Of a stretch of DNA of 64,000 bases, positions 30,143 through 45,732 are shown one piece after another. The notes below the pieces were generated by a model, which saw only the letters and a list, made by a program, of their open reading frames with translations, searched no databases and was not told where the DNA came from. Origin of the DNA: Sphingomonas sp. 67-36 (GTDB lineage: Bacteria; Pseudomonadota; Alphaproteobacteria; Sphingomonadales; Sphingomonadaceae). The number at the start of each line of letters is the position of its first letter. Positions within the stretch are counted from its first letter, which is position 1. The position numbers and the translations under genes were made by a program. Location: positions 275,603-339,602 of the forward strand of contig MKSU01000004.1 of assembly GCA_001897375.1 (NCBI GenBank). The letters run 5' to 3'.

Positions 30143-30164
30143 TCGCGGCGAAGCGCTGAAAGAC

Positions 30165-30199
30165 AGGCCCGGCGGGGAAACCTGCCGGGCCTTCTTTTT
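30165..30199 (+). terminator. intrinsic terminator of the Bax-inhibitor-like gene
   Basis: A nine-base-pair perfect G+C-rich stem (AGGCCCGGC … GCCGGGCCT) begins 23 bases after the stop codon and is followed by TCTTTTT. Confidence 0.88.
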
Positions 30200-30230
30200 G
30201 GGACGGGGGCAGCGCGGCGGCTACCGATCG

Positions 30231-30238
30231 TTAACCAT
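30231..30238 (+). promoter_or_regulatory. CtrA-like half-site upstream of the PilZ gene
   Basis: TTAACCAT, an exact match to the CtrA half-site described in Caulobacter, lies 39 bases before the PilZ start. A single half-site is weak evidence by itself. Confidence 0.25.
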
Positions 30239-30277
30239 GTCGTGTCAGGGTGGCGGCTCGCAACAGGGACCGTATCG

Positions 30278-30586: not shown

Positions 30587-30672
30587 TCTCCGCGCCGCCC
30601 GCGACCGCCGCGGGCATCATTGTCGAAGCTCTGGAAGCCGTTTTGCGCTATACAATTGCGCGCTGCCGCCAG

Positions 30673-32040
<1,368 letters not shown>

Positions 32041-32041
<1 letters not shown>

Positions 32042-33105
32042 TGCGAGTGGCAGAGGTTATCGAGAGCGAAGCGGGCGCCGGGACCGGTGACATTGCCCGC
32101 ATGAACATGATCCAGGCGATCAACTCCGCGCTGGACGTGATGATGGCGCGCGACGACGCGATCGTCGTGATGGGCGAGGACGTGGGCTATTTCGGCGGCG
32201 TGTTCCGCGCCACCGCCGGCCTCCAGAAGAAATACGGCAAGACCCGCGTGTTCGACACGCCGATCACCGAATGCGGCATCATCGGCGTCGCGGTGGGGAT
32301 GGGCGCCTATGGTCTGCGCCCCGTGCCGGAGATCCAGTTCGCGGATTATATCTATCCCGCGCTCGATCAGCTTGTCAGCGAGGCGGCGCGGTTGCGCTAC
32401 CGCTCCGATGGCGAGTTCATCGCGCCGCTCACGGTACGCTCGCCGTTCGGCGGCGGCATCTTCGGCGGACAGACGCACTCGCAATCGCCGGAAGGCATCT
32501 TCACCCATGTCTCCGGGCTCAAGACGGTGATCCCGTCGACGCCCTATGATGCCAAGGGCCTGCTGATCGCCGCGATCGAGGACAATGATCCGGTCATCTT
32601 CTTCGAGCCGAAGCGCATTTACAACGGCCCGTTCAACGGCCATTGGGACCGCCCCGCGGAGAATTGGTCGAAGCATCCGGCGGGCGCGGTGCCGACGGGT
32701 TATTACCGCATCCCGCTGGGCAAGGCGAACGTGGTGCGGGAGGGCGAGGCGGTGACGATCCTCGCTTACGGCACGATGGTCCACGTCTGCCTGAACGTGG
32801 TGGCGGAGGCGGGGGTCGATGCGGAGGTGATCGACCTGCGCACGCTCGTCCCGCTCGATATCGAGACCATCGAGGAATCGGTGCGCAAGACGGGGCGCTG
32901 CCTGATCGTCCATGAGGCGACGCGCACCTCCGGCTTCGGCGCGGAGCTTTCCGCGCTGGTGCAGGAACGCTGCTTCTACCATCTGGAAGCGCCGATCGAA
33001 CGTGTCACCGGGTTCGACACACCCTATCCGCACAGCCTCGAATGGGCCTATTTCCCGGGGCCGGTGCGGATCGGCCAGGCGCTCAAGAAGATTCTGAAGG
33101 ATTGA
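32041..33105 (+). CDS. bkdA2: branched-chain 2-oxoacid dehydrogenase E1 component, beta subunit
   Basis: Partner of E1α, contributing the other half of the TPP site. It has 354 residues. Typical segments are NMIQAINSALDVMM, GEDVGYFGGVFRAT, FDTPITECGIIGVAVGMG and the C-terminal transketolase-C domain with LRTLVPLDIETI and HEATRTSGFGAEL. The ATG at 32041 overlaps the E1α stop; a GTG two codons downstream is also possible. The E2 gene follows after five bases. Confidence 0.94.
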
Positions 33106-33110
33106 CGAGG

Positions 33111-34397
33111 ATGGCGCGTTTCAACTTCCGCCTGCCCGATATCGGCGAAGGCATTTCCGAGGCCGAGATCGTCGCGTGGCACGTCAAGGTCGGCGACCGG
33201 GTCGAGGAGGACCAGCAGATCGCCGACATGATGACCGACAAGGCGACGGTCGAGATGGAAAGCCCGGTCGCGGGCACCGTCGTCGAGCTGGCCGGCGAGG
33301 TCGGCGATCAGGTGTCGATCGGTTCGACTTTGGTGGTGATCGAGATCGACGGCGAGGAGGAAGCGGCCGTCGAGATCGAGGAGGAGACGCCGGGCGTGGC
33401 GGTGGTTGAGCCGGTTGCGGTGGTGGAGAGCGTCTCGCACCCGGAACTCGCCGCTCCGGCTCCTGTCGAGGCCGCTCCGGCGCCCGCCGACAGCGTGGAG
33501 CGTCCTTCGCCGAAGGAGGAGACGCCTGCGGCTCCCCACGTCCTCGCATCCCCCGCCGTTCGCGCCCGAGCGCGCGATCTCGGCATCGACCTCGCGCAGG
33601 TGAAGCCGGCGGAGGGCGATCGCGTCCGCCATTCCGATCTCGACGCCTATCTGCGTTACGCCTCGGGGCAGGGCTATCTGGCACCTCACGCCAGCCGCGC
33701 GCGGGCGGACGAGCAGATCAAGGTGATCGGGATGCGCCGCCGCATCGCCGAGAACATGGCCGCGTCGAAGCGCCATATCCCGCATTTCACCTATGTCGAC
33801 GAGATCGACGTGACCGAATTGGAGCGAGTCCGCGCCGATCTCAACGCGACGCGTGGGAACCGGCCGAAGCTGACGATGTTGCCGCTGCTGATCGTCGCGA
33901 TCTGTCGCAGCCTGCCGCAATTCCCGATGCTCAACGCGCGTTACGACGATGAGGCGGGCGTGGTGACGCGCTCGGGCCGCGTCCATCTCGGCATGGCGAC
34001 GCAGACCGATGCGGGCCTCACCGTGCCGGTGATCCGCGACGCGCAGGACAGGAACGTCTGGCAGCTCGCGGCCGAGATAACCCGGCTGGCCGATGCCGCG
34101 CGCGCCTCCAAGCTGAAGCCGGAGGAACTGGGCGGTGGCACGATCACCGTCACCAGCCTCGGCCCGCTCGGCGGCATCGCGACCACGCCGGTCATCAACC
34201 GGCCGGAAGTGGCGATCATCGGCCCGAATAAGATCGTCGAGCGCCCGGTGTTCCATGGCGACGATATCGTGCGGGCGAAGCTGATGAACCTGTCGATCAG
34301 CTGCGACCATCGCGTCGTCGATGGCTGGGACGCGGCGAACTACGTCCAGGCGCTCAAGAAGCTGCTCGAAACCCCGGTGTTGCTGTTCGCGGATTGA
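33111..34397 (+). CDS. bkdB: branched-chain 2-oxoacid dehydrogenase E2 (dihydrolipoyl acyltransferase)
   Basis: Core of the complex: carries the acyl group on lipoate and transfers it to CoA. It has 428 residues. A single N-terminal lipoyl domain has the lipoylated lysine at K44 (MTDKATVEME). A long Ala/Pro/Glu linker leads to an E1/E3-binding domain (about 142–178, SPAVRARARDLGIDLAQV), a second linker and the catalytic domain. Catalytic His400 and Asp404 are in CDHRVVDG. A GAGG sequence precedes the ATG. A G+C-rich hairpin after the stop probably ends the operon. Confidence 0.95.
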   Translation: MARFNFRLPDIGEGISEAEIVAWHVKVGDRVEEDQQIADMMTDKATVEMESPVAGTVVELAGEVGDQVSIGSTLVVIEIDGEEEAAVEIEEETPGVAVVEPVAVVESVSHPELAAPAPVEAAPAPADSVERPSPKEETPAAPHVLASPAVRARARDLGIDLAQVKPAEGDRVRHSDLDAYLRYASGQGYLAPHASRARADEQIKVIGMRRRIAENMAASKRHIPHFTYVDEIDVTELERVRADLNATRGNRPKLTMLPLLIVAICRSLPQFPMLNARYDDEAGVVTRSGRVHLGMATQTDAGLTVPVIRDAQDRNVWQLAAEITRLADAARASKLKPEELGGGTITVTSLGPLGGIATTPVINRPEVAIIGPNKIVERPVFHGDDIVRAKLMNLSISCDHRVVDGWDAANYVQALKKLLETPVLLFAD

Positions 34398-34405
34398 TCG
34401 TGCCG

Positions 34406-34435
34406 GGCGCCGGCCGCGGGTGAGCCGCCGGCGCC
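34406..34435 (+). terminator. hairpin after the bkd operon
   Basis: A nine-base-pair perfect stem (GGCGCCGGC … GCCGGCGCC, 12-base loop) begins nine bases after the E2 stop. It lacks a T-tract, so it may work with Rho or as an mRNA end stabiliser. Confidence 0.5.
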
Positions 34436-34443
34436 TGCCGATC

Positions 34444-34587
34444 CTATACCCTGCGGCCGGTGAAAAGCTGGACCAGCCCGACCACCAGCGCGACGATCAG
34501 CAGGATGTGGATCAGCCCGCCCGCGATGTGCAGGCTGAAACCGAGCAGCCACAGGATCAGCAGAATTACGACAATGGTCCAGAGCAT
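34444..34587 (-). CDS. Lmo0937-family small membrane protein
   Basis: A 47-residue protein: MLWTIVVILLILWLLGF then a second hydrophobic helix (HILLIVALVVGLVQL) and a basic end. This is the typical sequence of the Lmo0937 family of stress-associated micro-proteins with two membrane helices. The ATG at 34587 has GGAGAGGA upstream; a longer frame reaching 34647 includes the promoter and is rejected. A perfect EcfG-type promoter precedes it, so it is probably part of the general stress response. The molecular function is unknown. Confidence 0.82.
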   Translation of the reverse strand: MLWTIVVILLILWLLGFSLHIAGGLIHILLIVALVVGLVQLFTGRRV

Positions 34588-34619
34588 CGTTTTTCCTCTC
34601 CATCTGGAATGGAGAAGAG

Positions 34620-34645
34620 AACGTGCGTCATGTCGAAACCGTTCC
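34620..34645 (-). promoter_or_regulatory. EcfG-type general-stress promoter
   Basis: On the minus strand GGAAC (34645–34641), a 17-base spacer and CGTT (34623–34620) match the alphaproteobacterial EcfG promoter consensus (GGAAC-N16/17-CGTT). The predicted transcript start near 34613 gives a ~25-base leader with a Shine–Dalgarno sequence for the Lmo0937-family gene. Confidence 0.75.
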
Positions 34646-34662
34646 AAAGCGTGATTGACCGC

Positions 34663-35346
34663 TCAGCGGAACGACAGGTTGATGCTGGCCGTGGCGGCGT
34701 GATCGCTCCCGCCAGCCGCGCCGGTGGCGAAGCGATACTGGTTGAGATAACCCAGCTCGACATTCACGCCCTTCGCGACCGGCGTATAGAGCGCTAGCGC
34801 GTTACGCATTCGATCCTCGCCAGCGATCGTCTGGAAGGCGTTGCGGTTGAGGTTGATGAAGCTCTCATGGCTGAACGCAATGCCGGTCGCGCCCTGTGCG
34901 TGCAGCGGCACGGCGATGCGGACGAACGGGCGGACCCGCCAGCCGGTGCCGTCCACTCCGTCGCGCCAGCGTTGTTCGGTGCGTAGCCGCAGCATCGCTC
35001 TCGCGGGGCCGACGCGGATGTCCTCCAGCGTCACCTGCTCGCGCGCGCGGCGTTCCATCGCGGCGAGACGGCCGCCGTCATAGGTCGGATCATGGGTATA
35101 GCCGGCCCAGACGGTGAGCCGCGGCGCGAGGCGATAGCCCAGAAGCGAATTGCTCTCGATCTCCGACAGGCCCGCGCGATTGTCGCTCAGCCGGACGATG
35201 ACTTCCTGCGAGAAACGCCAGCGGTCGCCGATCCGCACCGTGGCGGCGCCGGTCAGCCATAGCTGCGCATCGTCGCGGGCGAGTACCCGCGTCGGGCAGG
35301 CCGCCATCGCCACGCCGAACATGCAACAGGCGGCCATTATGCGCAT
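34663..35346 (-). CDS. DUF2490 family outer-membrane β-barrel-like protein
   Basis: A 227-residue exported protein. A signal peptide is visible (MRIMAACCMFGVAMAACPTR with likely cleavage after VLA), followed by ~200 residues of alternating strands typical of DUF2490: LWLTGAATVRIGDRWRFSQE, LLGYRLAPRLTVWAGYTHDP, and RTEQRWRDGVDGTGWRVRPF. It ends in SINLSFR with a terminal aromatic, which fits an outer-membrane barrel. The exact start is uncertain (35346 or 35337). The start at 35346 lies inside a perfect 10+10 inverted repeat. Function unknown. Divergent from the ArsR operon. Confidence 0.78.
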   Translation of the reverse strand: MRIMAACCMFGVAMAACPTRVLARDDAQLWLTGAATVRIGDRWRFSQEVIVRLSDNRAGLSEIESNSLLGYRLAPRLTVWAGYTHDPTYDGGRLAAMERRAREQVTLEDIRVGPARAMLRLRTEQRWRDGVDGTGWRVRPFVRIAVPLHAQGATGIAFSHESFINLNRNAFQTIAGEDRMRNALALYTPVAKGVNVELGYLNQYRFATGAAGGSDHAATASINLSFR

Positions 35347-35362
35347 CGGCTGGCCGATGCGC
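35341..35362. repeat. inverted repeat over the DUF2490 start codon
   Basis: GCGCATCGGC, two bases, then its exact complement: a 22-base element containing the start codon at 35346. In mRNA it could form a hairpin hiding the start codon; in DNA it could be an operator. Confidence 0.6.
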
Positions 35363-35412
35363 AGAATTATGACGCCGCCGCAACAAATCTCTGTCCAGGT
35401 GACCGGAAAAAA

Positions 35413-35469
35413 TTCAACCGATGGGTTTACAGTCCCGCGATGGCGACATATGTAAACCACATGGTTGAA
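35413..35469. promoter_or_regulatory. long interrupted palindrome, candidate ArsR operator
   Basis: TTCAACC-N4-GGTTTACA (35413–35431) is repeated in inverted orientation as TGTAAACC-N4-GGTTGAA (35451–35469), with a 19-base centre. Fifteen of 19 positions pair, in two blocks. It spans the start codon of the ArsR-type regulator and so is well placed for autorepression. Confidence 0.7.
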
Positions 35470-35784
35470 CAAAAGCTCGATCTCACCTTCGCCGCGCTGG
35501 CAGATCCGACCAGGCGGGCGATGCTGGCGGCGCTGCGCGGCGGGGAGCGCTCGATCGGCGATCTCGCCGCGCCTCATGCGATGACCTTCGCCGGCGCCGC
35601 CAAGCACGTCGGCGTCCTCGCGCGCGCCGGGCTGATCGAGCGGCGCAAGGTGGGGCGACAGCAGCTTTGCCGGCTTAAGGCGGAGCGTTTCGCCGAAGCG
35701 GAGGCGTGGCTGGCCGAATGGACGCGCTTCTGGAACCACCAGCTCGACGCGCTGGAAGCCGCGTTGCGGGAGGATCAGGAATGA
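35440..35784 (+). CDS. ArsR-family winged-helix transcriptional regulator
   Basis: A 114-residue regulator of the ArsR subtype usually paired with SRPBCC proteins (FAALADPTRRAMLAALRGGE, then the recognition-helix region MTFAGAAKHVGVLARAGLIERRKVGRQQL). No Cys-based metal site is visible, so it is probably not a metal sensor. Two starts are possible: ATG 35440 and ATG 35461 (the latter giving MVEQKLDLTF); neither has a clear Shine–Dalgarno sequence. The operator palindrome covers both. It overlaps the next gene (ATGA), forming a three-gene operon. Confidence 0.88.
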   Translation: MATYVNHMVEQKLDLTFAALADPTRRAMLAALRGGERSIGDLAAPHAMTFAGAAKHVGVLARAGLIERRKVGRQQLCRLKAERFAEAEAWLAEWTRFWNHQLDALEAALREDQE

Positions 35785-36224
35785 ACGGGCCGGTGACGCT
35801 CACGGTGACGCGCGATTTCGTGGCCTCGCCCGAACGGGTGTTCGATGCGTGGCTCGACCCGGTCGTGGCGCGGCGATTCCTGTTCGCGACGTCGGGTGGC
35901 GAGATGCTCACCTGCGAGATCGATGCCCGTGTCGGCGGATCGGCGCTGATCGTCGAGCGGCGACCGGCCGGGGATGCGCGTCACCGCCTGCGCTTCGAGG
36001 TGATCGAGCGGCCGGGGCGGCTCGTGTTCCTGTTCGGCGCCGATCCCGCGCCGGAGGGCGAATGGACGCGTGTGACGATCGGGATCACGCCGCTTGGCGC
36101 GGGCGCGCGTCTGACGCTGACGCACGAGATGGACCCACAATGGGCCGCCTATGCCGATCGCACGCGCGAGGGCTGGGCAATGATCCTGCAATCACTGGAG
36201 AGGAACCTGAACGACCATGGCTGA
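35781..36224 (+). CDS. SRPBCC (AHSA1-like) domain protein
   Basis: A 147-residue START/AHSA1-like protein, a hydrophobic-cavity fold. Typical features are the opening strand-helix TVTRDFVASPERVFDAWLDP, the GGEM…VGGSALIVERR strands and the C-terminal helix REGWAMILQSLERNL. The ATG overlaps the regulator's stop (ATGA) and the next SRPBCC gene overlaps this one by eight bases. Proteins of this type in ArsR operons are ligand-binding or stress proteins; the ligand is unknown. Confidence 0.85.
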   Translation: MNGPVTLTVTRDFVASPERVFDAWLDPVVARRFLFATSGGEMLTCEIDARVGGSALIVERRPAGDARHRLRFEVIERPGRLVFLFGADPAPEGEWTRVTIGITPLGAGARLTLTHEMDPQWAAYADRTREGWAMILQSLERNLNDHG

Positions 36225-36738
36225 CCTTATCACCGCGCGGGAATTGCGCTTCGAACGCCTGCTGGCCGCGCCGGTCGACAAGGTGTGGCAATATCTGGTC
36301 GACCCCGAACTGCGCGCGCGCTGGTTCATGGCCGGGCCGAGCGATATCCGGCCCGGCGGCACGATCGGATTCACGATGGCGCACGAGAATCTGTCGGACG
36401 GGCCGGTGGCGACGCCGGAGCGTTTCGCCGGGAAAAGCGGGCACCAATGGAGCGAGCGCGTGCTGCGCGTCGAGCCGCCGCATCTGCTTGCCTTTACCTG
36501 GGACAATGGCGAGGCGGGGGAGGTGACGATCACCCTGACGCCGGAAGGCGACCGGACGCGGCTGTTGCTGCATCACAACGGGCTGCGCGGCGCGAGCGAC
36601 GCGGCGAGCTTCGGTGGCGGCTGGGGCGCGCATCTGGCGGTGCTGGAGCGCCGCGTTGCCGGGGAGAAGGTGCCGGACTTCTGGCAGCTTCACGCCGAAG
36701 CCGAGGAGCGGGCGAAGCAGGCGGTAGGCGTCGCCTGA
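36217..36738 (+). CDS. SRPBCC (AHSA1-like) domain protein, second paralogue
   Basis: A 173-residue relative of the preceding gene: LRFERLLAAPVDKVWQYLVDPELRARWFMAG opens the SRPBCC fold and GGWGAHLAVLERRVAGEK forms the long C-terminal helix. It starts eight bases before the end of the previous gene, so the pair and the ArsR regulator form one translation-coupled operon. The two SRPBCC proteins are clearly different sequences, so they may form a heteromer or bind different ligands (inference). Confidence 0.85.
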   Translation: MADLITARELRFERLLAAPVDKVWQYLVDPELRARWFMAGPSDIRPGGTIGFTMAHENLSDGPVATPERFAGKSGHQWSERVLRVEPPHLLAFTWDNGEAGEVTITLTPEGDRTRLLLHHNGLRGASDAASFGGGWGAHLAVLERRVAGEKVPDFWQLHAEAEERAKQAVGVA

Positions 36739-36751
36739 GCGCCATTGCGGG

Positions 36752-37447
36752 TCAGGCGGCCAGCGCCGCCTCGGCCTGCGTAAGCGCCTTGGGATCGTCC
36801 ACGTCGAGCCACCAGGCATCGCCGATATCGGTGACGCGCGCGTCGCCCGTCGCGGCGAGCGCCTCCACCCCGGCGGAGATCGATCCGCTGCCGCCCGCCG
36901 CGATGCTGGCGCGCAGCGCGTCGTGGAAGCGACCGTCGACCGCGAACACGCCGCAATCGAACGCATCGTAATCGGGGAGATGCTTGCCGATCGCGACGAT
37001 CCGGTCGCCGTTGGTGCGGACCCGCGTCACGTCGTCGAGATCGACCAGCGGATTGTCCAGCCGCCGGTCGATCGCCAGCGTCAGCGGCGCATCCGGCGCG
37101 GCGATGGCGCGCGCGACGATCGCCGGATCGAACAGATGGTCGGCCATCATCAGCAGATGCCGCTCCGGCCCGATCGCATCGGCGCCGGTCAGCACCGAAT
37201 GGCCGTTGGCGAGGGACCAGTCAGCGGTGCGGACGCAGGCGATCGCCGGATCGAGCGCGCGGAGATAGCTCTCCAGCGCCTCACCCTCATGCCCGGTGAC
37301 GACGGTGAAGCCGCTCGCGCCGCCGGCACGCGCCGCCGCGATGACGCGCGCGATCAGCGGCACGCCAGCGACGGGGGTCAGCGGTTTGGAGGGGGACACC
37401 GCGCGCAGCCGGCTGCCATAGCCGGCCGCGACGATGAGCGCCTTCAC
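36752..37447 (-). CDS. nucleotidyltransferase, probable CTP:inositol-1-phosphate cytidylyltransferase
   Basis: A 231-residue sugar-nucleotidyltransferase-fold enzyme. The nucleotide loop LIVAAGYGSRLR and Lys in SPSKPLTPVAGVPLI are intact. The segments VVTGHEGEALESYL, WSLANGHSVL and LLMMADHLFDP closely recall inositol-1-phosphate cytidylyltransferases (IPCT), in which an N-G-x-S and a D-H-x-x-x-x motif are characteristic. It starts at GTG 37447, overlapping the stop of ino1 (GTGA), so the two are co-translated. Likely reaction: CTP + L-myo-inositol 1-phosphate to CDP-inositol. The substrate is inferred from motif and neighbour; another sugar phosphate cannot be excluded. Confidence 0.78.
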   Translation of the reverse strand: MKALIVAAGYGSRLRAVSPSKPLTPVAGVPLIARVIAAARAGGASGFTVVTGHEGEALESYLRALDPAIACVRTADWSLANGHSVLTGADAIGPERHLLMMADHLFDPAIVARAIAAPDAPLTLAIDRRLDNPLVDLDDVTRVRTNGDRIVAIGKHLPDYDAFDCGVFAVDGRFHDALRASIAAGGSGSISAGVEALAATGDARVTDIGDAWWLDVDDPKALTQAEAALAA

Positions 37448-38550
37448 TCGGCGGCGAGCCGGGCGTCGGCGTGGATGAAGTCGTCGGTCATCTGCGCCGC
37501 GATATCGTCGGTATATTGCTCCGGCGGATGCTTGCAGAAGAAGGACGACGGGCCGGTCAGCGCGCCGGCGAGGCCGCGATCGAGGCCGAGCTTGCAGCAG
37601 CGGATCGCGTCCACCACCACGGCGGCGGAATTGGGGCTGTCCTCCACCGACAGGCGCAGTTCGAGGTTCATCGGCACGTCGCCGAACAGATTGCCCTCGA
37701 GGCGCAGGAAGCACAGCTTGTTGTCGTGCAGCCACGGGATGTAGTCGGACGGGCCGACGTGGATATTCTCGTCCGCCAGCCGCTCGGCGAGCACGGCCTG
37801 CACGGCCTCCGTCTTCGATTCCTTCTTGCTCGAAAGGCGGTTGCGGTCGAGCATGTTCATGAAGTCGGTGTTGCCGCCGGTGTTGAGCTGATAGGTGTGG
37901 TCGATCGTCACGCCGCGGCTCTTGAACAGGTTCGACAGGACGCGGTGGACGATCGTCGCGCCGACCTGCGCCTTCACGTCGTCGCCGATGATCGGCAGCC
38001 CGGCCCGGGCGAAGCGCGCTTCCCATTCCGGGTTGGACGCGATGAACACCGGCATGCAGTTCACCACCGCAAGCCCCGCCTCCAGCGCGCATTCCATGTA
38101 GAATTCGGTCGCCTTCTGGCTGCCGACCGGCAGGAAATTGACGAGCACTTCCGCGCCCGAATCCTTCAGCGTGCGAATGATCGACGCGCGATCGGTGTCC
38201 GGCGTTCCGTCCACCTCGAAACCGCGATCGTTGGCGACGGTGAGCATATGGTCGGCCACGCCGTCCAGCTTCGCGCCCATCTGCACGATCGTGCCGGTTT
38301 TCGGCACCTCGGCGTGAAATACCTTGGTGCAGTTCGGCTTGGCGAAGATCGCCTCGCCCAGATCCAGCCCGACCTTGCGAGAATCGACGTCGAACGCGGC
38401 GACGAATTCGATGTCGCTGACCTTGTATCCACCGACGTCTTCATGGATCAGCCCGTGGGCGGTGTTGCCGGCGGAATAGTGATACTTGCCCTGCACCAGG
38501 CTGCTCGCGCAGTTGCCGACCCCGATGATGGCGACCTTGATCCTCGACAT
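37444..38550 (-). CDS. ino1: inositol-3-phosphate synthase
   Basis: NAD-dependent enzyme that converts glucose 6-phosphate to L-myo-inositol 1-phosphate (D-3-phosphate). It has 368 residues, the compact prokaryotic form. The Rossmann motif GVGNCASSL is at residues ~10–18. The conserved NTGGNTDFMNM, SKKESKTEAV, DYIPWLHDNK and LRLSVEDSPNSAAVV stretches, containing the catalytic Lys and Asp residues, are intact. First gene of a two-gene unit with the cytidylyltransferase, and divergent from a CDP-alcohol phosphatidyltransferase. Confidence 0.94.
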   Translation of the reverse strand: MSRIKVAIIGVGNCASSLVQGKYHYSAGNTAHGLIHEDVGGYKVSDIEFVAAFDVDSRKVGLDLGEAIFAKPNCTKVFHAEVPKTGTIVQMGAKLDGVADHMLTVANDRGFEVDGTPDTDRASIIRTLKDSGAEVLVNFLPVGSQKATEFYMECALEAGLAVVNCMPVFIASNPEWEARFARAGLPIIGDDVKAQVGATIVHRVLSNLFKSRGVTIDHTYQLNTGGNTDFMNMLDRNRLSSKKESKTEAVQAVLAERLADENIHVGPSDYIPWLHDNKLCFLRLEGNLFGDVPMNLELRLSVEDSPNSAAVVVDAIRCCKLGLDRGLAGALTGPSSFFCKHPPEQYTDDIAAQMTDDFIHADARLAAE

Positions 38551-38672
38551 TAAACCCCCGCTTTGCCGGCTGCGGCCGGCGGATGACTGATTAGCGTCAG
38601 TGTCGTGACAGATGCACGACGCCTGTCAAGCGATGGCAGCACCTGTTATTCGGCGGCAAAGGGGACTTCGCC

Positions 38673-39551
38673 TTGGAATCGAACGAATTGCCGGCAGCTG
38701 TTACGGGAAAACCGCGTGAATTGCAGGGTTTCCTGAACCGGATCGCTTACCATCCCGCGGCCCGGCGACTCGCGATCTTGCTCGCTCGGACGCCGGCGAC
38801 TCCGAACATGGTTTCGGTGTTCGGCGCGGCGATGGTGTGCGCGACGGGAGTGCTTTACGCGCTGGTCGGGACGCCGCTCGCGATCGGAATCGGCTTCGCG
38901 CTGCATCTGCTATGGCATGTCGTCGACGGCGCGGACGGCGATCTCGCGCGGATGACGGGCCGCGCCAGCCCGCGCGGCGAGGTGGTGGACGGCCTGTGCG
39001 ACTATGGCGGCCATACCGTGCTCTACCTGCTGCTCGGCTATGCGCTCCAGCAGGTGTTCGGGCCATTGATCTGGGTGGTTGTGGTGGGCGCGGGCGTATC
39101 GCGCATCGTCCAGTCGGTGTTCGCGGAAAGCTCGCGGCGGAGCTACCAATGGTGGGCTTATGGCGTGCCGTGGATCCAGAACAACCGTGCGGCTGGATCG
39201 ACCGGAATGGGCGGGGCGCTGGCGCGCTTCTACCTCAAGGTCTCCCATGCCGTTACGGGGCCGACCGAGACGATCAACGCGCTGGTGGCGAGCGCCGAGC
39301 CGGATCCGGCCGAGCGGCAGCGGATCGCGCGGCTGGCGAGGGAAACGGGCCGCCGAACGCTGCTGCTGCCCGGCCTGCTCGGCGCCAATCCACGCACGAT
39401 CCTGCTGGGCCTCAGCATGATCGCGGGATCGTCGGTATGGTTCTTCCTGATCGAACTGACGTTGCTCAACATCCTGCTGGCGGTGGCGATCGTGCAGCAA
39501 CGCATCAATTGCGCGCGCCTGATGGCGCTGATCGCGCGCGGAAGGGATTGA
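38673..39551 (+). CDS. CDP-alcohol phosphatidyltransferase family protein
   Basis: A 292-residue membrane protein with a perfect CDP-alcohol phosphotransferase signature: D85-x2-D88-G89-x2-A92-R93-x8-G102-x3-D106-x3-D110. The TPATPNMVSV motif precedes the first helix. About six membrane segments are seen; residues ~165–235 form an extra hydrophilic insert. The start is TTG at 38673, with AAGGGGA about ten bases upstream. Being divergent from ino1 and a CDP-inositol-forming enzyme, it may transfer phospho-inositol from CDP-inositol to a lipid alcohol, or alternatively use CDP-diacylglycerol plus inositol phosphate. The actual pair of substrates cannot be read from the sequence. Confidence 0.88.
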   Translation: MESNELPAAVTGKPRELQGFLNRIAYHPAARRLAILLARTPATPNMVSVFGAAMVCATGVLYALVGTPLAIGIGFALHLLWHVVDGADGDLARMTGRASPRGEVVDGLCDYGGHTVLYLLLGYALQQVFGPLIWVVVVGAGVSRIVQSVFAESSRRSYQWWAYGVPWIQNNRAAGSTGMGGALARFYLKVSHAVTGPTETINALVASAEPDPAERQRIARLARETGRRTLLLPGLLGANPRTILLGLSMIAGSSVWFFLIELTLLNILLAVAIVQQRINCARLMALIARGRD

Positions 39552-39612
39552 CGCGCGGAACTTCGCGGCGCCGGGAACGGTTCGTTACCGGAACGGGATT
39601 CAAGGGAGACGG

Positions 39613-40143
39613 ATGATGCGCATGATGGTGGTGATGGCAGGGGCGCTGACGCTGGCTGCCTGTGGCGAGGGCGGCATGCAGACCGGCGCCCCGGTGGCGG
39701 GCGGCGCGCATGCGGTGGCGCTGCTCAAGCTGGCGAACGGCGCCGACGCCGGCCGCGCGACCGCGACCGAGGTGGCCGGCGGGCTGCGCGTGACGGTCGA
39801 TGCGAAGGGCCTGCCGCCCGGCACGCACGGCGCGCATGTCCACACCACGGGCCGCTGCGATGCCCCAGATTTCGCCAGCGCCGGGGGCCACTGGAACCCC
39901 ACGAGCATGAAGCACGGCTCGATGAACCCGCAGGGGCCGCATGAGGGCGACCTGCCCAATCTGGTGATCGACACCGGCGGCCGCGGCACGGTTGCGGCGA
40001 CCATTCCCGGCGCGACGATGGCCGGGCTGCTAGACGCCGACGGCGCGGCGCTGGTGATCCACGCCAATGCCGACGACCTGATGACCGATCCCGCCGGCAA
40101 CAGCGGGGCGCGGATCGCCTGCGGGGTGTTTCAGGCCGGCTGA
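39613..40143 (+). CDS. sodC: superoxide dismutase [Cu-Zn], lipoprotein
   Basis: Periplasmic Cu,Zn superoxide dismutase of 176 residues. The N-terminus is a lipoprotein signal with lipobox LAAC (C17), so it is probably anchored to a membrane. The metal ligands are readable: HVH in GAHVHTTG, the bridging His in GGHWNP, GPHEGDLPN, the final His in LVIHANADD, and the active-site Arg in GARIACGVF. ATG at 39613. Its 3' end overlaps the GNAT gene on the other strand by 13 bases. Confidence 0.92.
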   Translation: MMRMMVVMAGALTLAACGEGGMQTGAPVAGGAHAVALLKLANGADAGRATATEVAGGLRVTVDAKGLPPGTHGAHVHTTGRCDAPDFASAGGHWNPTSMKHGSMNPQGPHEGDLPNLVIDTGGRGTVAATIPGATMAGLLDADGAALVIHANADDLMTDPAGNSGARIACGVFQAG

Positions 40144-40652
40144 GAACCCAGCTTCCGGCTCACCTTCACCAGCGTCGGGTCGCCCTCCAGCGGCTCGACG
40201 GTGAGGCCCATCTCGCGCTCCAGGTTGACGGCGGCGACATTGTCGCGCGATTCGATCGCCTCGACCCATTGCGCGCCGCGTTCCTGCGCCTGATCCATCG
40301 CGAAGCGCATCAGTTCCCAGCCGATGCCGTGATCCTTGTGATCGCTGCGCACCGCGACGGCCAGCTCCGCGCGCTCGCCGCTCGCATCGAAGCACAGCAT
40401 CGCCAGCGCGAGCAGCGCGCCGCCGTCCGCGTCGGCGGCAAGCCAGGTGGCGTCGCGGCCATCGTTGCGGGTCATCGTCTCGATCAGCGAGCGGCCGATG
40501 CGATTCGCCGTGGCGAGGAAGCGGAAGCGCCGGTCCTCGGGCGATAGCTGGTCGAAGAACTGGTCGATCGGGAATTCGTCGCCCGGCCCGGCAAGGCGGA
40601 TGTCGAGCCGCACGCCGGCGCGCGTGGTGAGTCGGGTGGTAGGCGTCTGCAT
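40131..40652 (-). CDS. GNAT-family N-acetyltransferase
   Basis: A 173-residue acyltransferase of the GNAT fold: LDIRLAGPGDEFPIDQFF at the N-terminus, the catalytic core strand AELAVAVRSDHKDHGIGWELMRFAM (acetyl-CoA pyrophosphate loop R/Q-x-x-G-x-G/A) and the end ERGAQWVEAIESRDNVAAVNLEREMGL. It is of the PatZ C-terminal-domain-like subtype that modifies proteins in some species, but no ADP-forming ligase domain is present here, so the substrate is open. ATG 40652 has AAAGG upstream. It is divergent from the hemerythrin gene, with an FNR box in between. Confidence 0.82.
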   Translation of the reverse strand: MQTPTTRLTTRAGVRLDIRLAGPGDEFPIDQFFDQLSPEDRRFRFLATANRIGRSLIETMTRNDGRDATWLAADADGGALLALAMLCFDASGERAELAVAVRSDHKDHGIGWELMRFAMDQAQERGAQWVEAIESRDNVAAVNLEREMGLTVEPLEGDPTLVKVSRKLGSQPA

Positions 40653-40718
40653 GTCGTGGCCTTTCGATGCCGGACCGCGTGGTTTGCCCGCTTCCCGATA
40701 GATTATGCCCGGTCGACG

Positions 40719-40738
40719 GCTTTGACCATCGTCAAAGC
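40719..40738. promoter_or_regulatory. FNR/FixK-type box
   Basis: GCTTTGAC-CATC-GTCAAAGC, a perfect 8+8 palindrome with a four-base centre that contains TTGAC-N4-GTCAA, one substitution per half from the FNR consensus TTGAT-N4-ATCAA. It lies 56 bases upstream of the hemerythrin gene and 67 bases upstream of the divergent GNAT gene. Confidence 0.75.
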
Positions 40739-40793
40739 GCGCATGGCACCATGCGCTAAGCATCGATCGGACCTGCTTCTGGGATATTTCGCG

Positions 40794-41267
40794 ATGCTTG
40801 CCGGTCCTTCACGCCTCGATGCCGCTGAGCCGACCCTCGACACGCTCGAGGAGGATCACGCCATCCAGCGTGCGCTGTGCCGCGATATCGAGGCGCTGGC
40901 GGACGGGCTGCCGAAACTGCCGCCGCTGCCGGAGGTGCGCCGCCTGTGCGATCGCGTGATGCGCGTGGCGGGCGCGCATCTCGTCCGCGCCGAACTCGTG
41001 TTCGAGCGGTTGCCGGCGGGGCAGGGGCCGAGCGACGCCGAACTGGAGACGCTGCGCGAGATGCACGCGCTCGATGCGACGCACGCCGACGATCTGGTGA
41101 TGGCGCTATGGGATCATGTCGGCCGCGAGCCGGAGGCGCATGTCGGCCAGCTCTCCTATATGCTGCGCTGCTTCTTCGACGGATGCCGCCGCGCGATCGC
41201 GCTCAAGGAGAGCTGGATCGCCGCCGCGCGCAGGGCAGGGGCGGGGCCGGGTCTCAGGCCGGATTGA
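40794..41267 (+). CDS. hemerythrin-like protein
   Basis: A 157-residue helical protein with the hemerythrin-domain arrangement: EEDHAIQRALC (H22), AGAHLVRAELVFERL with H62 and E67, and MHALDATHADDL with H91 and H97, so a di-iron site is plausible. Such proteins bind O2 or NO, or repair iron-sulfur centres. The ATG at 40794 was chosen because the FNR box lies upstream; the long frame to 40656 would include it. It ends overlapping the Fnr-type gene by 14 bases, tail to tail. Confidence 0.8.
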   Translation: MLAGPSRLDAAEPTLDTLEEDHAIQRALCRDIEALADGLPKLPPLPEVRRLCDRVMRVAGAHLVRAELVFERLPAGQGPSDAELETLREMHALDATHADDLVMALWDHVGREPEAHVGQLSYMLRCFFDGCRRAIALKESWIAAARRAGAGPGLRPD

Positions 41268-41967
41268 CGATCGCTTTCAGCGCGGCGCGGTCGAGGATCG
41301 TGCAGTCGCGCTCGCCCTTGGCGAAATCGACCACCCCGGCGGTCTTCAGGCGGGTGAGATGGCGGCTGACCGTCTCGATCGTCAGCCCCAGGAAACCGGC
41401 CATCTCGCCGCGGCTGATCGGGATCAGCACCTGGATGCGTCCGGCGGCGTCGGGCATGCCGGTGCGCTCGGCCAGTTCGAGCAGGAAGCCCGCCACCCGC
41501 TCGCGCGCGTCCTTGCGCCCCAGCGAGAGCATCCGCTCGCGCGCCTCATCGAGCGAGGCCATGGTGCGTTCGAGCAGCAGCCGTTCCATGTGCGGATAGG
41601 TTTCGAGCGCGCGCTCGAAGCCGGTGCGCGGGAAGGTGCACAAATTGGTGTCGGTGAGCGCGGTGACCGTCAGCGACGCCTCGGCGGTGAAGAGCTGGCC
41701 GACGAAATCGCCGGGAAACAGCAATCCGACGATCTGCTCGCGCCCGTCGGCGGTCGAGGCGGAAACCTTGAGCGCGCCGGACACGACGTTGGCGCAGCTG
41801 CTGTTCGGGTCGCCCGCCCAGGTGACGACCTGCCCGGCCGCGACATCGCGCCGGCGCCCGAGAGCGCTGAGCGCGGCAAGCTCGCAATCGCTCATGCTGG
41901 CGCACAGCGCCTTGTCGCGCACGAGACAATCGAGACAGCGTTGTGGAACCCCGGACACGGATGCCAT
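41254..41967 (-). CDS. fnr: Fnr-type oxygen-sensing transcriptional regulator
   Basis: Crp/Fnr-family regulator of 237 residues with features of a true [4Fe-4S] Fnr: an N-terminal Cys cluster C11, C14, C22, C28 and an additional internal C110 corresponding to the fourth ligand of E. coli Fnr. The helix-turn-helix LTIETVSRHLTR has E198, S201 and R202, the same residues that read TTGA half-sites. It should thus activate or repress genes under low oxygen; the FNR box at 40719 is a nearby candidate target. ATG 41967 gives the Fnr-like N-terminus. The frame can be extended by 20 residues to 42027 without benefit. Confidence 0.88.
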   Translation of the reverse strand: MASVSGVPQRCLDCLVRDKALCASMSDCELAALSALGRRRDVAAGQVVTWAGDPNSSCANVVSGALKVSASTADGREQIVGLLFPGDFVGQLFTAEASLTVTALTDTNLCTFPRTGFERALETYPHMERLLLERTMASLDEARERMLSLGRKDARERVAGFLLELAERTGMPDAAGRIQVLIPISRGEMAGFLGLTIETVSRHLTRLKTAGVVDFAKGERDCTILDRAALKAIVNPA

Positions 41968-42041
41968 TCTTGCATCAATGTGCGGCTTTGTCAGCACCGG
42001 TTTGTTACGGAGTTGATGGCGCGGCATCGCAACCAGAAGAA

Positions 42042-42116
42042 TGGCTCCCTGAGTAGGATTCGAACCTACGGCCGCTCGATTAACAGTCGAGAGCTCTACC
42101 GCTGAGCTATCAGGGA
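42042..42116 (-). tRNA. tRNA-Asn (anticodon GTT)
   Basis: A complete 75-base cloverleaf: acceptor stem TCCCTGA paired with TCAGGGA, D-loop TAGCTCAGCGGTAGAGC, anticodon stem CTCGA with loop containing GTT (plus-strand 42082–42084), a GGTTCGAATCC T-arm and an encoded 3' CCA. Confidence 0.97.
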
Positions 42117-42183
42117 ATGCCGTGCGGGAGGCGCGTCTATAGCCGCCTGATTCAGAGATGCAACCCCTGTTTCGCCACGAATT

Positions 42184-42963
42184 TCAGGCGATGAACTGCT
42201 CCATCGTGATGCGGTCGTCCAGCGCGTGCTCGGGGTCGAACAGCAGCGTCAGTTCGCGAGCGCGGTCCATCGCGATGTCGACCTGCGCGACATCGCGGAT
42301 CTCGCGCTGGTCGGCCACCGCCGACACCGGGCGCTTGCCCGGATCGAGGATACGCAGCGACACGCGCGCGCGGTCCGGCAGGATCGCCCCGCGCCAGCGC
42401 CGCGGGCGGAAGGCGCTGATCGGGGTGAGCGCGAGCAGGTTGGAGCCGAGCGGGAGGATCGGGCCGTGCGCGGAGAGATTGTAAGCGGTCGAGCCGGCGG
42501 GCGTGGCGACAAGGATGCCGTCGCACGCCAGCTCCTCCAGCACGATGCGGTCGTTGACCGCCACCTCGATCTTCGCGGTCTGGCGCGTTTCGCGCAGCAG
42601 CGACACCTCGTTGATCGCGGGTAACGTGTGGATGCGGCCGTCGATCCCCGTCGCGGTCATCATCAGCGGCGTGACCTTGAACGCGCGTGCGCGGTCCAGC
42701 CGGTCGTCCAGCCCCAGCCCGCGCCATTCGTTCATCAGGAAGCCGACCGTGCCGAGATTCATCCCGAATACCGGCGGCGGCGGGCGGCGCGCCTCCAGCA
42801 TGGCGTGCAGAGTCTGGAGCAGGAACCCGTCGCCGCCGAGCGCGATGACCAGATCGGCCTCCTCGATCGGGCACCAGTCCCAGGCGTCGAAAAGCTCGGC
42901 GCGGGCAGCCTGGGCCTGGGCGGTGGGCGAGGCGACCAGCGCCCGCCGGGGGTAGCTCGTCAT
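42184..42963 (-). CDS. nadK: NAD kinase
   Basis: Phosphorylates NAD+ to NADP+. It has 259 residues, the short bacterial form. The catalytic GGDG motif is in VIALGGDGFLLQTLH, followed by NLGTVGFLMNE, CDGILVATPAGSTAYNLSA, and GPILPLGSNLLALTPI, all diagnostic. The start ATG 42963 overlaps the moaA stop (ATGA). The upstream open frame continues into moaA and is ignored. tRNA-Asn follows on the same strand. Confidence 0.95.
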   Translation of the reverse strand: MTSYPRRALVASPTAQAQAARAELFDAWDWCPIEEADLVIALGGDGFLLQTLHAMLEARRPPPPVFGMNLGTVGFLMNEWRGLGLDDRLDRARAFKVTPLMMTATGIDGRIHTLPAINEVSLLRETRQTAKIEVAVNDRIVLEELACDGILVATPAGSTAYNLSAHGPILPLGSNLLALTPISAFRPRRWRGAILPDRARVSLRILDPGKRPVSAVADQREIRDVAQVDIAMDRARELTLLFDPEHALDDRITMEQFIA

Positions 42964-43973
42964 CCGCCGGTCACGTTCATATGGCGCGACACCGCCGGGG
43001 CGGCGCCGCGCGCGATGTGGAAATCGTGCGCGCGCGGCTTGGCGGCGAGCGCGGCATCGATCGCGGCGTCCAGCCCGGCGACTCCGCCGCCACGCAGCGC
43101 CTGCTTCAGATCGGCGTGATCGTCGTGGCCAAGGCAGGAATAGAGCCGCCCCTCGGTCGTCAGCCGCACGCGGTTGCAGCCGTCGCAGAAATTCCCGGTG
43201 AGCGGCGAGATCAGGCCGAGCCGCGTATCGCTGCCCGCGACTCGCCAGTAACGCGCCGGGCCGCCGGTGCTGCGGGGATCGCGGATCAGATCGTGGCTCG
43301 CGGAAAGCTGCTCGAACACGCGGGTGAGGGGAAGGAAGCGGTCGGTGCGGTCTTCGTCGATCGCGCCGAGCGGCATGGTCTCGATCAGCGTGAGGTCCAG
43401 CCCTTCCGCGACGCACCAGTCCAGCATCGGCGCGATCTCGTCTTCGTTGAGACCCTTGAGCGCGACCATGTTGATCTTGACGCGCAAGCCCGCGCCGCGC
43501 GCCGCCGCGATCCCGCCGAGCACCTGCGCGACGTCGCCGTGCCGGGTGATGAAACGGAAGCGATCCGCATTGCGGCTGTCGAGGCTGACGTTGATACGGC
43601 GGATGCCGGCGTCGTGCAGCGCCGCGGCATGATCGGCGAGGCGCGTGCCGTTGGTGGTCATCGTCAGCTCGTCCAGCCCGCCGCCGACATGCCGGCCGAG
43701 TCGCCGCACCAGATCGATCACGTCGCGGCGCACCAGCGGCTCACCGCCCGACAGCCGGATCTTGCGCACGCCGCGCGCGATGAAGCGTTCCGCGATGACC
43801 GCGATTTCCTCCAGCGCGAGCAATTCGGCGCGGGGCAGGAAGGTCATCCGCTCGGCCATGCAATAGCGGCAGCGCAGGTCGCAGCGATCGGTGACCGAGA
43901 CGCGCAGATAGCGGATCGCCCGGCCGAAGCCGTCGACGAGCGCGCCGGGCGCGTGGAGATCGGATATCACCAT
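42960..43973 (-). CDS. moaA: GTP 3',8-cyclase MoaA
   Basis: Radical-SAM enzyme for the first step of molybdenum-cofactor synthesis (GTP to 3',8-cyclo-GTP). It has 337 residues. The SAM cluster CxxxCxxC is C31, C35, C38 (TDRCDLRCRYCM), the SAM-binding GGE is in IRLSGGEPL, and the C-terminal substrate cluster is in FCDGCNRVRLT…LYSCLG. The conserved C-terminal GG pair is present (VTGG). It is translationally coupled to nadK; moeA is elsewhere in the window. Confidence 0.96.
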   Translation of the reverse strand: MVISDLHAPGALVDGFGRAIRYLRVSVTDRCDLRCRYCMAERMTFLPRAELLALEEIAVIAERFIARGVRKIRLSGGEPLVRRDVIDLVRRLGRHVGGGLDELTMTTNGTRLADHAAALHDAGIRRINVSLDSRNADRFRFITRHGDVAQVLGGIAAARGAGLRVKINMVALKGLNEDEIAPMLDWCVAEGLDLTLIETMPLGAIDEDRTDRFLPLTRVFEQLSASHDLIRDPRSTGGPARYWRVAGSDTRLGLISPLTGNFCDGCNRVRLTTEGRLYSCLGHDDHADLKQALRGGGVAGLDAAIDAALAAKPRAHDFHIARGAAPAVSRHMNVTGG

Positions 43974-44071
43974 CGCATGGGAGAGCTAGGCGTTGCAGGT
44001 GCTTGCGGCAAGCCTGTGCCAATATTGGCCCGTATCGGCTGGGAAACGATTGGCGAACGCGCGTCGTGTCG

Positions 44072-44086
44072 CTAACAAATCGTTAA
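44072..44086 (-). promoter_or_regulatory. CtrA-like box over the start of the EAL gene
   Basis: Read on the minus strand TTAA-N7-TTAG, one base away from the CtrA consensus TTAA-N7-TTAA, overlapping the first base of the EAL gene's ATG. Such a site would allow cell-cycle-dependent control; the gene-start overlap suggests repression. Confidence 0.4.
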
Positions 44087-45732
44087 TGCAGGGTCAGCCG
44101 CCGTTTCCGAAGCCGACAGCCACGATCGCGATCGCGCCCGATGCCGCGCGCGGCGCGCTGGAGCCGTTGCTGGCTGGAGCCGGGTGGATCGCCGCCGATG
44201 CTGCGCCTCTTGTGCGGCTGGTCGATGCGCGCGCCGGTCTGGCGACGCTGGCCGCGCTGGCGCCGGTCGCCTTCGAGGAACAGGCCGCGCTGGTCGCGAT
44301 CGTCGCGACGGAAACGGCGCTGGACGCCGCTTTCGACGCCGGGGCGACCCATGCGGTGGTGGGTGACGACCCCGCCGCCTTGCTGCGAATGCTGCGCTTT
44401 GCTGCGCGACATGCGCGGCGCGTGCGGCGTCTGGCGTTCGCGCGGCGCGTCGATGAGGCGCCGCCGGGCGAGGTGGCGCGTTTCCTCGCGCTGCGCGAGG
44501 AGCAGGGGGACACGCTGTCGATGATCGCGATCGCCCTGACGCGCTTCGATATCGTCAATGCCGCCTTCGGCCGCTCGGTGGGAGACGCGCTGCTCGCCGC
44601 CGCGTTCGCGCGGGTGGTCGATGCGCTGGTCGGCATTCCGCCGGAGGACCGGCAGGTGATGCGCGGCGACGGCGCGGTGGTGGAGGTGGCGCTTGCCGTC
44701 GATGCCGACACGCTCCGCGTGATCGTCGCGAGCGTGGAGAGCGCGCTGGCGCGGCCGTTCGATACCGGGGACGCGATGGTCAATCTCGGCGCGCGGATCG
44801 GCGTCGCGCGCGGAGGGGCCGCCGCCGACCTGCCGGCACGGGTGCGCGAGGCGCTGGACGACGCGCGCGGCGGCGACGGAACGAAGGTGTATCAGGCATC
44901 GCGCGTCTATGCCGCGCCGCTGGTGCGGCTTGCGGCGGACCTGCATCGCGCGATCGACCGCGACGAGATCGCGATCCTGTTTCAGCCGCAGGTGACGCTG
45001 GCCTCCGGCGCGATCACCGGCGTGGAGGCGCTGGCGCGGTGGGACCACCCGACGCTCGGCACGCTCGGCGCGGAGACCTTGTTCGCCGCCGCCGACCGCG
45101 CCGATCTGGGCGCGGCGCTGTCGGAGCATATCCTGATCCGCTCGCTCGATGCGGTATCGAGCTGGCCGGCGGCGCTGTCTGAGCTGCGGGTGGCGGTCAA
45201 CGTCACGGCGGCGGACGTGGCGCGGCCCGATTTCGTCCGCCGCTTCGTCGAGCATGTCGCGGAAAGCGGCGTCGCGCGGCGGCGGGTGACGGCGGAGATC
45301 ACCGAAACCGGCCTGATCGGCGATCTCGATGTAGCGGCGGTGGCGCTGGGCGCGCTGCGCGAGCAGGGCGTGCGGGTCGCGATCGACGATTTCGGCACCG
45401 GCTATTCCAGCCTCGCCTATCTGAAGGCGCTGCCGCTCGATTACCTCAAGATCGATCGCAGCCTGACGCGCGACATCGCCGGCGCGGCGCGCGATCGGGT
45501 GATCGTGCGCGGGGTGATCGCGATGGCGCACGCGCTGGGCCTCGCGACGATCGCCGAGGGGGTGGAAACGGCCGCCGAGCGCGATCTGCTCGCCGGCGAG
45601 GGTTGCGATCTCTACCAGGGCTATCTGTGCGCCGGCCCGCTCGACAGCGAGGCGCTGGCCGCGCTGGTGACAGGCTGGACGCTCAACCCGCGGCCTTCGC
45701 CAATCCCTTCGACAATTGCAGCGCACCGTTGA
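44086..45732 (+). CDS. EAL-domain c-di-GMP phosphodiesterase with degenerate GGDEF
   Basis: A 548-residue protein without transmembrane helices. The N-terminal ~115 residues look like a degenerate receiver-type α/β domain. Residues ~140–285 resemble a GGDEF domain, but the signature reads RGDGA, so cyclase activity is not expected. The C-terminal EAL domain is complete: EALARW (about 316–321), a NVT metal segment, EITETG, DDFGTGYSSLAYL, DYLKID and AEGVET, so it should hydrolyse c-di-GMP to pGpG. ATG 44086 was preferred over an in-frame start at 43993 without a clear ribosome site. The last 50 bases overlap mfd, tail to tail. Confidence 0.86.
   Translation: MQGQPPFPKPTATIAIAPDAARGALEPLLAGAGWIAADAAPLVRLVDARAGLATLAALAPVAFEEQAALVAIVATETALDAAFDAGATHAVVGDDPAALLRMLRFAARHARRVRRLAFARRVDEAPPGEVARFLALREEQGDTLSMIAIALTRFDIVNAAFGRSVGDALLAAAFARVVDALVGIPPEDRQVMRGDGAVVEVALAVDADTLRVIVASVESALARPFDTGDAMVNLGARIGVARGGAAADLPARVREALDDARGGDGTKVYQASRVYAAPLVRLAADLHRAIDRDEIAILFQPQVTLASGAITGVEALARWDHPTLGTLGAETLFAAADRADLGAALSEHILIRSLDAVSSWPAALSELRVAVNVTAADVARPDFVRRFVEHVAESGVARRRVTAEITETGLIGDLDVAAVALGALREQGVRVAIDDFGTGYSSLAYLKALPLDYLKIDRSLTRDIAGAARDRVIVRGVIAMAHALGLATIAEGVETAAERDLLAGEGCDLYQGYLCAGPLDSEALAALVTGWTLNPRPSPIPSTIAAHR

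Follow-up and report, generated by a model that had tools for sequence, protein, structure and literature searches.

How might a sphingomonad assemble an inositol-containing membrane lipid, and which lipid would receive the inositol? The question is raised by three adjoining genes in a stretch of 64,000 nucleotides from Sphingomonas sp. 67-36 (contig MKSU01000004.1), called the window below. They encode an inositol-3-phosphate synthase (MIPS, or INO1), a protein resembling CTP:inositol-phosphate cytidylyltransferases (IPCT) and a CDP-alcohol phosphotransferase (CDP-AP). Inositol lipids are relatively rare in bacteria, and the account of an inositol-phosphoceramide-like lipid in Novosphingobium acidiphilum leaves that lipid without genes (Heaver et al., PMC9246714). 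The locus supplies candidate genes, and roughly three in five of the genomes searched, in Novosphingobium as in the window's genus, carry its IPCT.

The trio is a real cassette, conserved in a sphingomonad family, that very probably makes CDP-inositol and likely serves inositol lipids. We favour, with moderate confidence, a three-step inositol-lipid cassette with (dihydro)ceramide as the most likely acceptor. Judging by its family, MIPS would convert glucose 6-phosphate into inositol phosphate. The cytidylyltransferase, whose gene overlaps that of MIPS, would then combine inositol phosphate with CTP into CDP-inositol, a step strongly supported by sequence. Finally, the membrane CDP-AP would transfer phosphoinositol from CDP-inositol to a lipid alcohol with release of CMP and without need of a phosphatase; with (dihydro)ceramide as the acceptor, the product would be inositol phosphoceramide. 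Such a trio route to a membrane inositol lipid, here probably a sphingolipid, is known from very few bacteria.

Probable formation of CDP-inositol by a conserved trio

All three genes were found together in 18 of 19 relatives' loci (loci are numbered with the prefix L); in the remaining one, L052, the stretch held the CDP-AP gene and neither of the others. Among 396 Sphingomonadales genomes, the CDP-AP query matched 157 at E 1e-3 and the IPCT query 111 at E 1e-20. When the window genome was excluded and CDP-AP matches were required to reach E 9.0e-17 or better, CDP-AP was present in 107 genomes, IPCT in 110 and both in 104, with CDP-AP lacking IPCT in three and the reverse in six. The starts of the two genes lay within 12 kb on one contig in 90 of the 104 genomes that have both; the remaining 14 carried them on different contigs (11) or far apart on one contig (3). 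Thus, the grouping proposed in the preliminary description is not one of chance. Among the 49 named CDP-AP loci, which include 30 titled Novosphingobium, 47 contained MIPS and 44 IPCT. Counted for IPCT only, at E 1e-40 and with incomplete genomes included, the IPCT profile matched 118 of 195 Novosphingobium genomes and 147 of 250 genomes of the window's genus. In a plasmid collection, the CDP-AP found no match at 1e-10.

The positions and identities assigned earlier to the three genes were borne out. MIPS passes the PF01658 cut-off and falls below that of TIGR03450, the mycothiol-type INO1 equivalog (426.3 bits vs 638). A MIPS profile built from 19 relatives matched the inositol-3-phosphate synthase 1gr0 best among solved structures (1.8e-139, 468 bits), followed by 6k96, a five-membered-cyclitol-phosphate synthase (4.5e-68, 233 bits). 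The GTG start of the cytidylyltransferase gene and the MIPS stop share 4 bases (GTGA); both motifs named for the cytidylyltransferase, NGHS and ADHLFDP, are present. The divergent CDP-AP gene likewise encodes an intact motif and a protein above the PF01066 cut-off.

The similarity of the cytidylyltransferase to solved IPCTs is the best among nucleotidyltransferases and nearly full-length. As a single sequence searched against the PDB, it matched 4jd0 (8.2e-17), 2xme (1.5e-15) and 4mnd (6e-15), and then GlmU (1.3e-9). A profile of 18 Sphingomonadales sequences (A2), from which the L037 copy, missed in gene calling, was left out, placed the solved IPCTs widely in the lead (2xme 6.3e-30, 4mnd 1.2e-29, 4jd0 1.3e-25); the next match stood at 1.4e-12 and the phosphocholine cytidylyltransferase 1jyk at 1.2e-10. 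The AlphaFold model (pLDDT 95.8) matched the fold of 4jd0 best (E 1.2e-20, TM 0.86), but this match is not specific, since other nucleotidyltransferases, from 4e-16 on, reached similar TM values. On NF041135, a Thermococcales equivalog of the bifunctional IPCT/DIPPS with two domains in one chain and a cut-off of 580 bits, the cytidylyltransferase scored 100.8 bits and the window CDP-AP 22.6 bits, the two functions sitting in separate genes.

The strongest evidence that the cytidylyltransferase uses the MIPS product comes from gene fusions. An even sample of 289 Alphaproteobacteria was searched with the IPCT profile, giving 25 genomes at E 1e-20 or better, of which 10, the window's included, matched strongly (E below 1e-50). 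Among the nine strong matches outside Sphingomonadales, four carry MIPS and IPCT fused in one open frame (L138, L140, L144, L146) and three carry an IPCT–CDP-AP fusion (L141, L142, L143). In L139, IPCT and CDP-AP adjoin, the CDP-APs numbering two and the MIPS belonging to another type; in L145, a 6.7-kb contig, IPCT alone was seen. Taken together, the IPCT-specific similarity, the MIPS–IPCT fusions and the separation from CpgD-like enzymes described below make it highly probable that the cytidylyltransferase makes CDP-inositol.

The IPCT–CDP-AP fusions (L141:6916-8262, L142:7147-8559, L143:274-1635) resemble the archaeal bifunctional enzyme. L139:5247-12704 also carries an LPG_synthase_TM protein and a BioF/Kbl/SPT-family enzyme; elsewhere, a BT_1521 homologue with the LPG_synthase_TM annotation has been named near inositol-lipid clusters (PMC9246714).

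The proposed acceptor of the phosphoinositol group

Three CDP-APs were found by PF01066 in the window's own genome: that of the window, PgsA (140.1 bits, cut-off 109.1) and a protein nearest to PssA (98.3 bits, just below 107). The signature of the window protein, DGADGDLARMTGRASPRGEVVDGLCD, fits D-x2-DG-x2-AR-x8-G-x3-D-x3-D. According to PMC6506517, CDP-APs whose substrate is inositol phosphate have a conserved Lys or Arg directly behind the fourth Asp of this motif (R94 in PgsA1), and this residue is crucial for activity. The window protein does not share this basic residue with phosphatidylinositol phosphate (PIP) synthase and DIPPS: it has Tyr, as do 29 of the 30 rows of profile A1 (the other having His) and all 49 named loci. 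The same position holds Arg in the three IPCT–CDP-AP fusions, Lys in the genome's own PgsA and Ala in its PssA-like protein; in the profile-search alignments, it is Arg in AF2299 and PIP synthase and Ser in CEPT1 and CHPT1. The Tyr in place of Lys or Arg favours an acceptor that bears no phosphate, and makes a lipid alcohol likelier than inositol phosphate.

Profile A1 comprises the window and 26 of the 29 loci L006-L034 together with L052-L054. Against the PDB, it matched AF2299 (4.4e-14), CEPT1 (5.3e-9), CHPT1 (3.9e-7), PIP synthase (6.6e-7) and IPCT-DIPPS 4mnd (4.2e-4), the differences being modest; CEPT1 and CHPT1 transfer the head group of a CDP-linked donor to a lipid. When CDP-AP cores were placed in a tree, all 30 A1 rows grouped in one clade (95/99), apart from the CDP-APs near CpgD-like genes, the fusions and a second CDP-AP group, c4. 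The missing basic residue, the resemblance of the genome's other two CDP-APs to PgsA and PssA, and flanking genes that are no phosphatases make transfer by the window CDP-AP to a lipid alcohol the probable reaction.

The cell should have the capacity to make (dihydro)ceramide, since serine palmitoyltransferase (SPT) and a candidate ceramide N-acyltransferase are encoded elsewhere in the genome. The SPT scores 741 bits to 2jg2 and 826 bits against a cut-off of 670, and an 80-aa frame adjoining it resembles, by eye, acyl carrier proteins. A homologue (41% identity) of a 377-aa protein of L138 is encoded about 5.6 kb away from the SPT gene; its position, set against the locus tags listed for S. 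wittichii in PMC9386255, suggests it as the candidate N-acyltransferase. A FemAB-like gene of the genome had been considered as ceramide synthase and was dropped in favour of this homologue, which sits near SPT.

In L138 itself, four genes follow one another on one strand: SPT, cut by the contig end; a hydroxylase of fatty acids (PF04116); the gene of the 377-aa protein, which matches no family; and a MIPS–IPCT fusion, the IPCT of which nests among sphingomonad ones (98/93). Ceramide is favoured because MIPS–IPCT runs with SPT in L138 and because the N. acidiphilum sphingolipid is consistent with inositol phosphoceramide (PMC9246714). Given a lipid-alcohol acceptor, ceramide is judged likelier than diacylglycerol; in this species it is a plausible and favoured candidate. 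Thus, the cassette interpretation put forward in the preliminary description finds partial support: CDP-inositol formation is strongly supported by sequence, transfer to a lipid alcohol appears probable, and ceramide is favoured on results obtained outside this species.

Several observations weigh against transfer to ceramide. L138, a single contig of 8.2 kb and thin evidence, is alone in showing SPT close by, and it revealed no CDP-AP; when the family of genome G638 was searched for more SPT-linked fusions, one of five genomes matched, G638 itself, and a lone MIPS lies elsewhere in it. The trio and SPT lie on different contigs in the window genome, and IPCT and SPT share a contig in 15 of 37 relatives (nearest 45.6 kb) and occupy different contigs in the other 22, so closeness of the trio to SPT on the chromosome was rejected. 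SPT is present in 389 of the 396 genomes of the order; its presence is therefore uninformative on the acceptor. N. acidiphilum is reported to be without homologues of either known cluster (PMC9246714), and it is not among the 49 matches of the single-protein CDP-AP scan. As for the transferase, CDP-APs that act on a lipid usually carry, as is typical of the eukaryotic enzymes, three or four additional helices at the C-terminus, and six-helix ones take soluble acceptors (PMC4634129). The model of the 292-aa window protein (pLDDT 89.3) is without clear added membrane helices; it has extra short helices at 179-235, and the segment that links its middle helices to the last one is extended (residues 164-237). 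The structural comparison called for in the preliminary description, run with Foldseek, gave a loose match only: the best E against solved structures was 6.2e-4, and TM was 0.45-0.48 for AF2299, the closest, and for IPCT-DIPPS 4mnd.

Ceramide and CPG2 genes are scattered in Sphingomonadales genomes such as those of S. wittichii and Z. mobilis (PMC11324152), which is consistent with the trio lying apart from SPT. At E 1e-40, 77 of the 195 Novosphingobium genomes gave no IPCT-profile match, and the S. paucimobilis lipid is instead tentatively assigned a phosphohexose (PMC9246714). That the trio is the source of the N. acidiphilum lipid is put forward as a hypothesis.

The same CDP-inositol donor might instead serve diacylglycerol or dialkylglycerol, giving phosphatidylinositol as in Rhodothermus marinus and as proposed for Bacteroides vulgatus. 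R. marinus offers the nearest precedent in function (Jorge 2015, as cited by PMC9246714), and the Bacteroides route is termed predicted and incompletely characterised (PMC10191378). The CDP-AP profile resembles CEPT1 and CHPT1, one of which was solved with diacylglycerol, and the sequence carries no feature that separates ceramide from diacylglycerol. However, the L138 fusion stands in a run of sphingolipid genes, and the N. acidiphilum lipid is consistent with an inositol sphingolipid (PMC9246714). On balance, a glycerolipid acceptor is unlikely, yet it deserves serious weight.

Less likely roles in surface polysaccharide, CDP-glycerate and di-myo-inositol phosphate synthesis

CDP-inositol could also be destined for a surface polysaccharide, either for its inositol-lipid anchor or for phosphoinositol groups that decorate it. 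In L044, L046, L049 and L051, the stretch with the inositol genes also contains a glycosyltransferase group (c8) and a gene for a KpsE-like exporter (c9), joined by a KpsM-like gene (c46) in L046 and L049; the annotations of c8, c9 and c46 were taken from group representatives. None of these groups was seen in the window from 30001 to 47000 or in the nearest relatives' loci (L036-L042), which makes this use of CDP-inositol improbable for the window. In the four loci that do carry them, these gene groups may point to an inositol lipid that is glycosylated, or to an anchor for a capsule. Within these 15-kb loci, one glycosyltransferase is weakly MshA-like, far under the cut-off of that model.

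Alternatively, the cytidylyltransferase might be of the CpgD type. CpgD of Caulobacter, an alphaproteobacterial enzyme active in sphingolipid head groups, makes CDP-glycerate for ceramide diphosphoglycerate and is related to IPCT; it shares 24% identity with the Thermotoga IPCT enzyme, which is also its top structural match (PMC12275187). Most of the Caulobacter genes, by implication CC_1152 (CpgD) too, are reported to have good orthologues in Sphingomonas wittichii (PMC11324152). In the class sample, the 15 weaker IPCT-profile loci bear on this point. Homologues of the L138-type hydroxylase and the 377-aa protein occur in five of them (L156, L157, L158, L163, L164), with SPT in L156, and the label CpgD-like rests on these sphingolipid neighbours. 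Neither homologue was found in the other 10 loci, three of which are on contigs of 3.7-12.4 kb, and MIPS was seen in none of the 15 stretches.

A cytidylyltransferase tree was built from 14 CpgD-like proteins (L160, from the genus of L159, being left out), 18 Sphingomonadales sequences, nine class rows and 2 solved IPCTs. The CpgD-like rows, among which no assayed CpgD was included, were split by a 100/100 branch from the window IPCT, the MIPS-linked rows and the solved IPCTs. In the sequence portions displayed, PKC stands close to their N-terminus; the A2 rows have an invariant Lys-Pro there. The solved 2xme and 4jd0 have very long branches and attach along the stem that joins the CpgD-like clade to the group of the window, and the tree program issued a warning that long branches meet. 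A further split (97/91) separates the 27 alphaproteobacterial rows from the PDB and CpgD-like rows. Therefore, the tree places the window protein outside the CpgD-like clade, and its kinship to the solved IPCTs rests on profile scores. With the window IPCT gene overlapping that of MIPS, and IPCT fused to MIPS elsewhere, a CpgD identity is supported by neither tree nor neighbourhood and is very unlikely.

In hyperthermophiles, CDP-inositol is joined to inositol phosphate on the way to the solute di-myo-inositol phosphate. The IPCT-DIPPS proteins among the sequence relatives of both enzymes bring this reaction to mind for the window CDP-AP, but Tyr after the fourth Asp argues against it, 4mnd ranks under CEPT1 and PIP synthase for the CDP-AP, the window's genus is taken as mesophilic, and the reading is very unlikely here. 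The L141-L143 fusions may themselves make di-myo-inositol phosphate, because they have Arg after the fourth Asp and because MIPS and an inositol-monophosphatase-like gene stand alongside in L141.

Related systems and gene layout

A CDP-inositol route to inositol phospholipids was reportedly described in R. marinus by Jorge in 2015, and the abstract of that work is said to have noticed homologues in Alphaproteobacteria already. Among the papers searched that mention CDP-inositol, none is, judged by its title, devoted to sphingomonads. The window trio resembles the R. marinus system, by description and not by CDP-AP sequence, in that inositol phosphate is activated with CTP before a CDP-AP takes a lipid alcohol; it differs in the acceptor, which is dialkylether glycerol in R. 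marinus (PMC9246714), whereas ceramide is favoured here. A CDP-inositol cluster has also been proposed for Bacteroides and Prevotella. The alternative cluster of B. vulgatus and Prevotella likewise brings together MIPS, an NTP transferase and a CDP-AP, but it includes a HAD hydrolase, which is suggested to turn phosphatidylinositol into the ceramide product (PMC9246714). No HAD hydrolase is found next to the window trio, HAD genes elsewhere in the genome not having been searched for; the bordering genes are AHSA1-like and SodC, neither a phosphatase.

The IPCT/DIPPS proteins of Archaeoglobus and Thermotoga (2xme, 4mnd, 4jd0) share the cytidylyltransferase sequence and fold and the CDP-AP motif, whereas the window CDP-AP is a separate gene product without a basic residue after the fourth Asp. 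The route through PIP synthase in mycobacteria and Bacteroides thetaiotaomicron also uses MIPS and a CDP-AP; it differs in having a lipid-activated donor and a phosphatase and in needing no cytidylyltransferase (PMC6506517, PMC10191378). In Caulobacter, also an alphaproteobacterium, CpgD and CpgA offer a parallel: a COG1213-type cytidylyltransferase and a CDP-alcohol-domain protein (CC_1159) serve a phosphosphingolipid head group (PMC12275187, PMC11324152). The Caulobacter donor is instead CDP-glycerate, and in other genomes the CpgD-like proteins and the CDP-APs found with them belong to clades apart from those of the window proteins, CpgD and CpgA themselves being compared by description only.

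If the one-step route is true, the head group and not the lipid is activated, and phosphatidylinositol is not needed, which sets it off from the eukaryotic transfer, where phosphatidylinositol is the donor, and from the Bacteroides proposals. Should ceramide prove to be the acceptor, head-group activation would be an alphaproteobacterial device for phosphosphingolipids, and a eukaryote-like lipid would arise by a route unlike the eukaryotic one and those proposed for Bacteroides. A broader and more tentative proposal is that sphingomonads transfer phosphoinositol from CDP-inositol directly to ceramide, so that inositol phosphoceramide forms in a single step by a third route, and that a swappable module of cytidylyltransferase and CDP-AP sets the alphaproteobacterial head group, glycerate with CpgD and inositol with IPCT.

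Table 1. Positions and properties of the trio and the region between its divergent arms
Feature	Position in window	Strand	Remarks
IPCT-like CTP:inositol-phosphate cytidylyltransferase	36752-37447	minus	231 aa, GTG start; NGHS and ADHLFDP motifs
MIPS/INO1, inositol-3-phosphate synthase	37444-38550	minus	368 aa; PF01658, family profile
Intergenic region between the divergent MIPS–IPCT pair and the CDP-AP gene	38551-38672	no strand	122 bp
CDP-AP, CDP-alcohol phosphotransferase	38673-39551	plus	292 aa, TTG start; PF01066, canonical motif, Tyr111 after fourth Asp; proposed CDP-inositol:lipid-alcohol phosphoinositol transferase

No further in-frame start codon (ATG, GTG or TTG) occurs in the interval from the upstream stop to the TTG of the CDP-AP gene (Table 1). 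Directly 3' of this gene, on the same strand, lies a Cu/Zn superoxide dismutase gene (SodC, 39613-40143), the group of which (c3) is present in six of the seven nearest relatives' loci (L036-L042).

Further CDP-APs accompany the trio in some relatives. Proteins of group c4, with a long N-terminal extension, join the genes in several loci (L044:6501-7589, L047:5751-6800, L048:8053-9063 and others); the group was matched in nine of the 49 named loci, outscores the window CDP-AP on the IPCT/DIPPS model and may serve a second acceptor. In other families, a CDP-AP of group c50 stands beside the genes (L052:8366-9748, L054:5945-7456) and has His and Lys at the expected third and fourth Asp of the motif.

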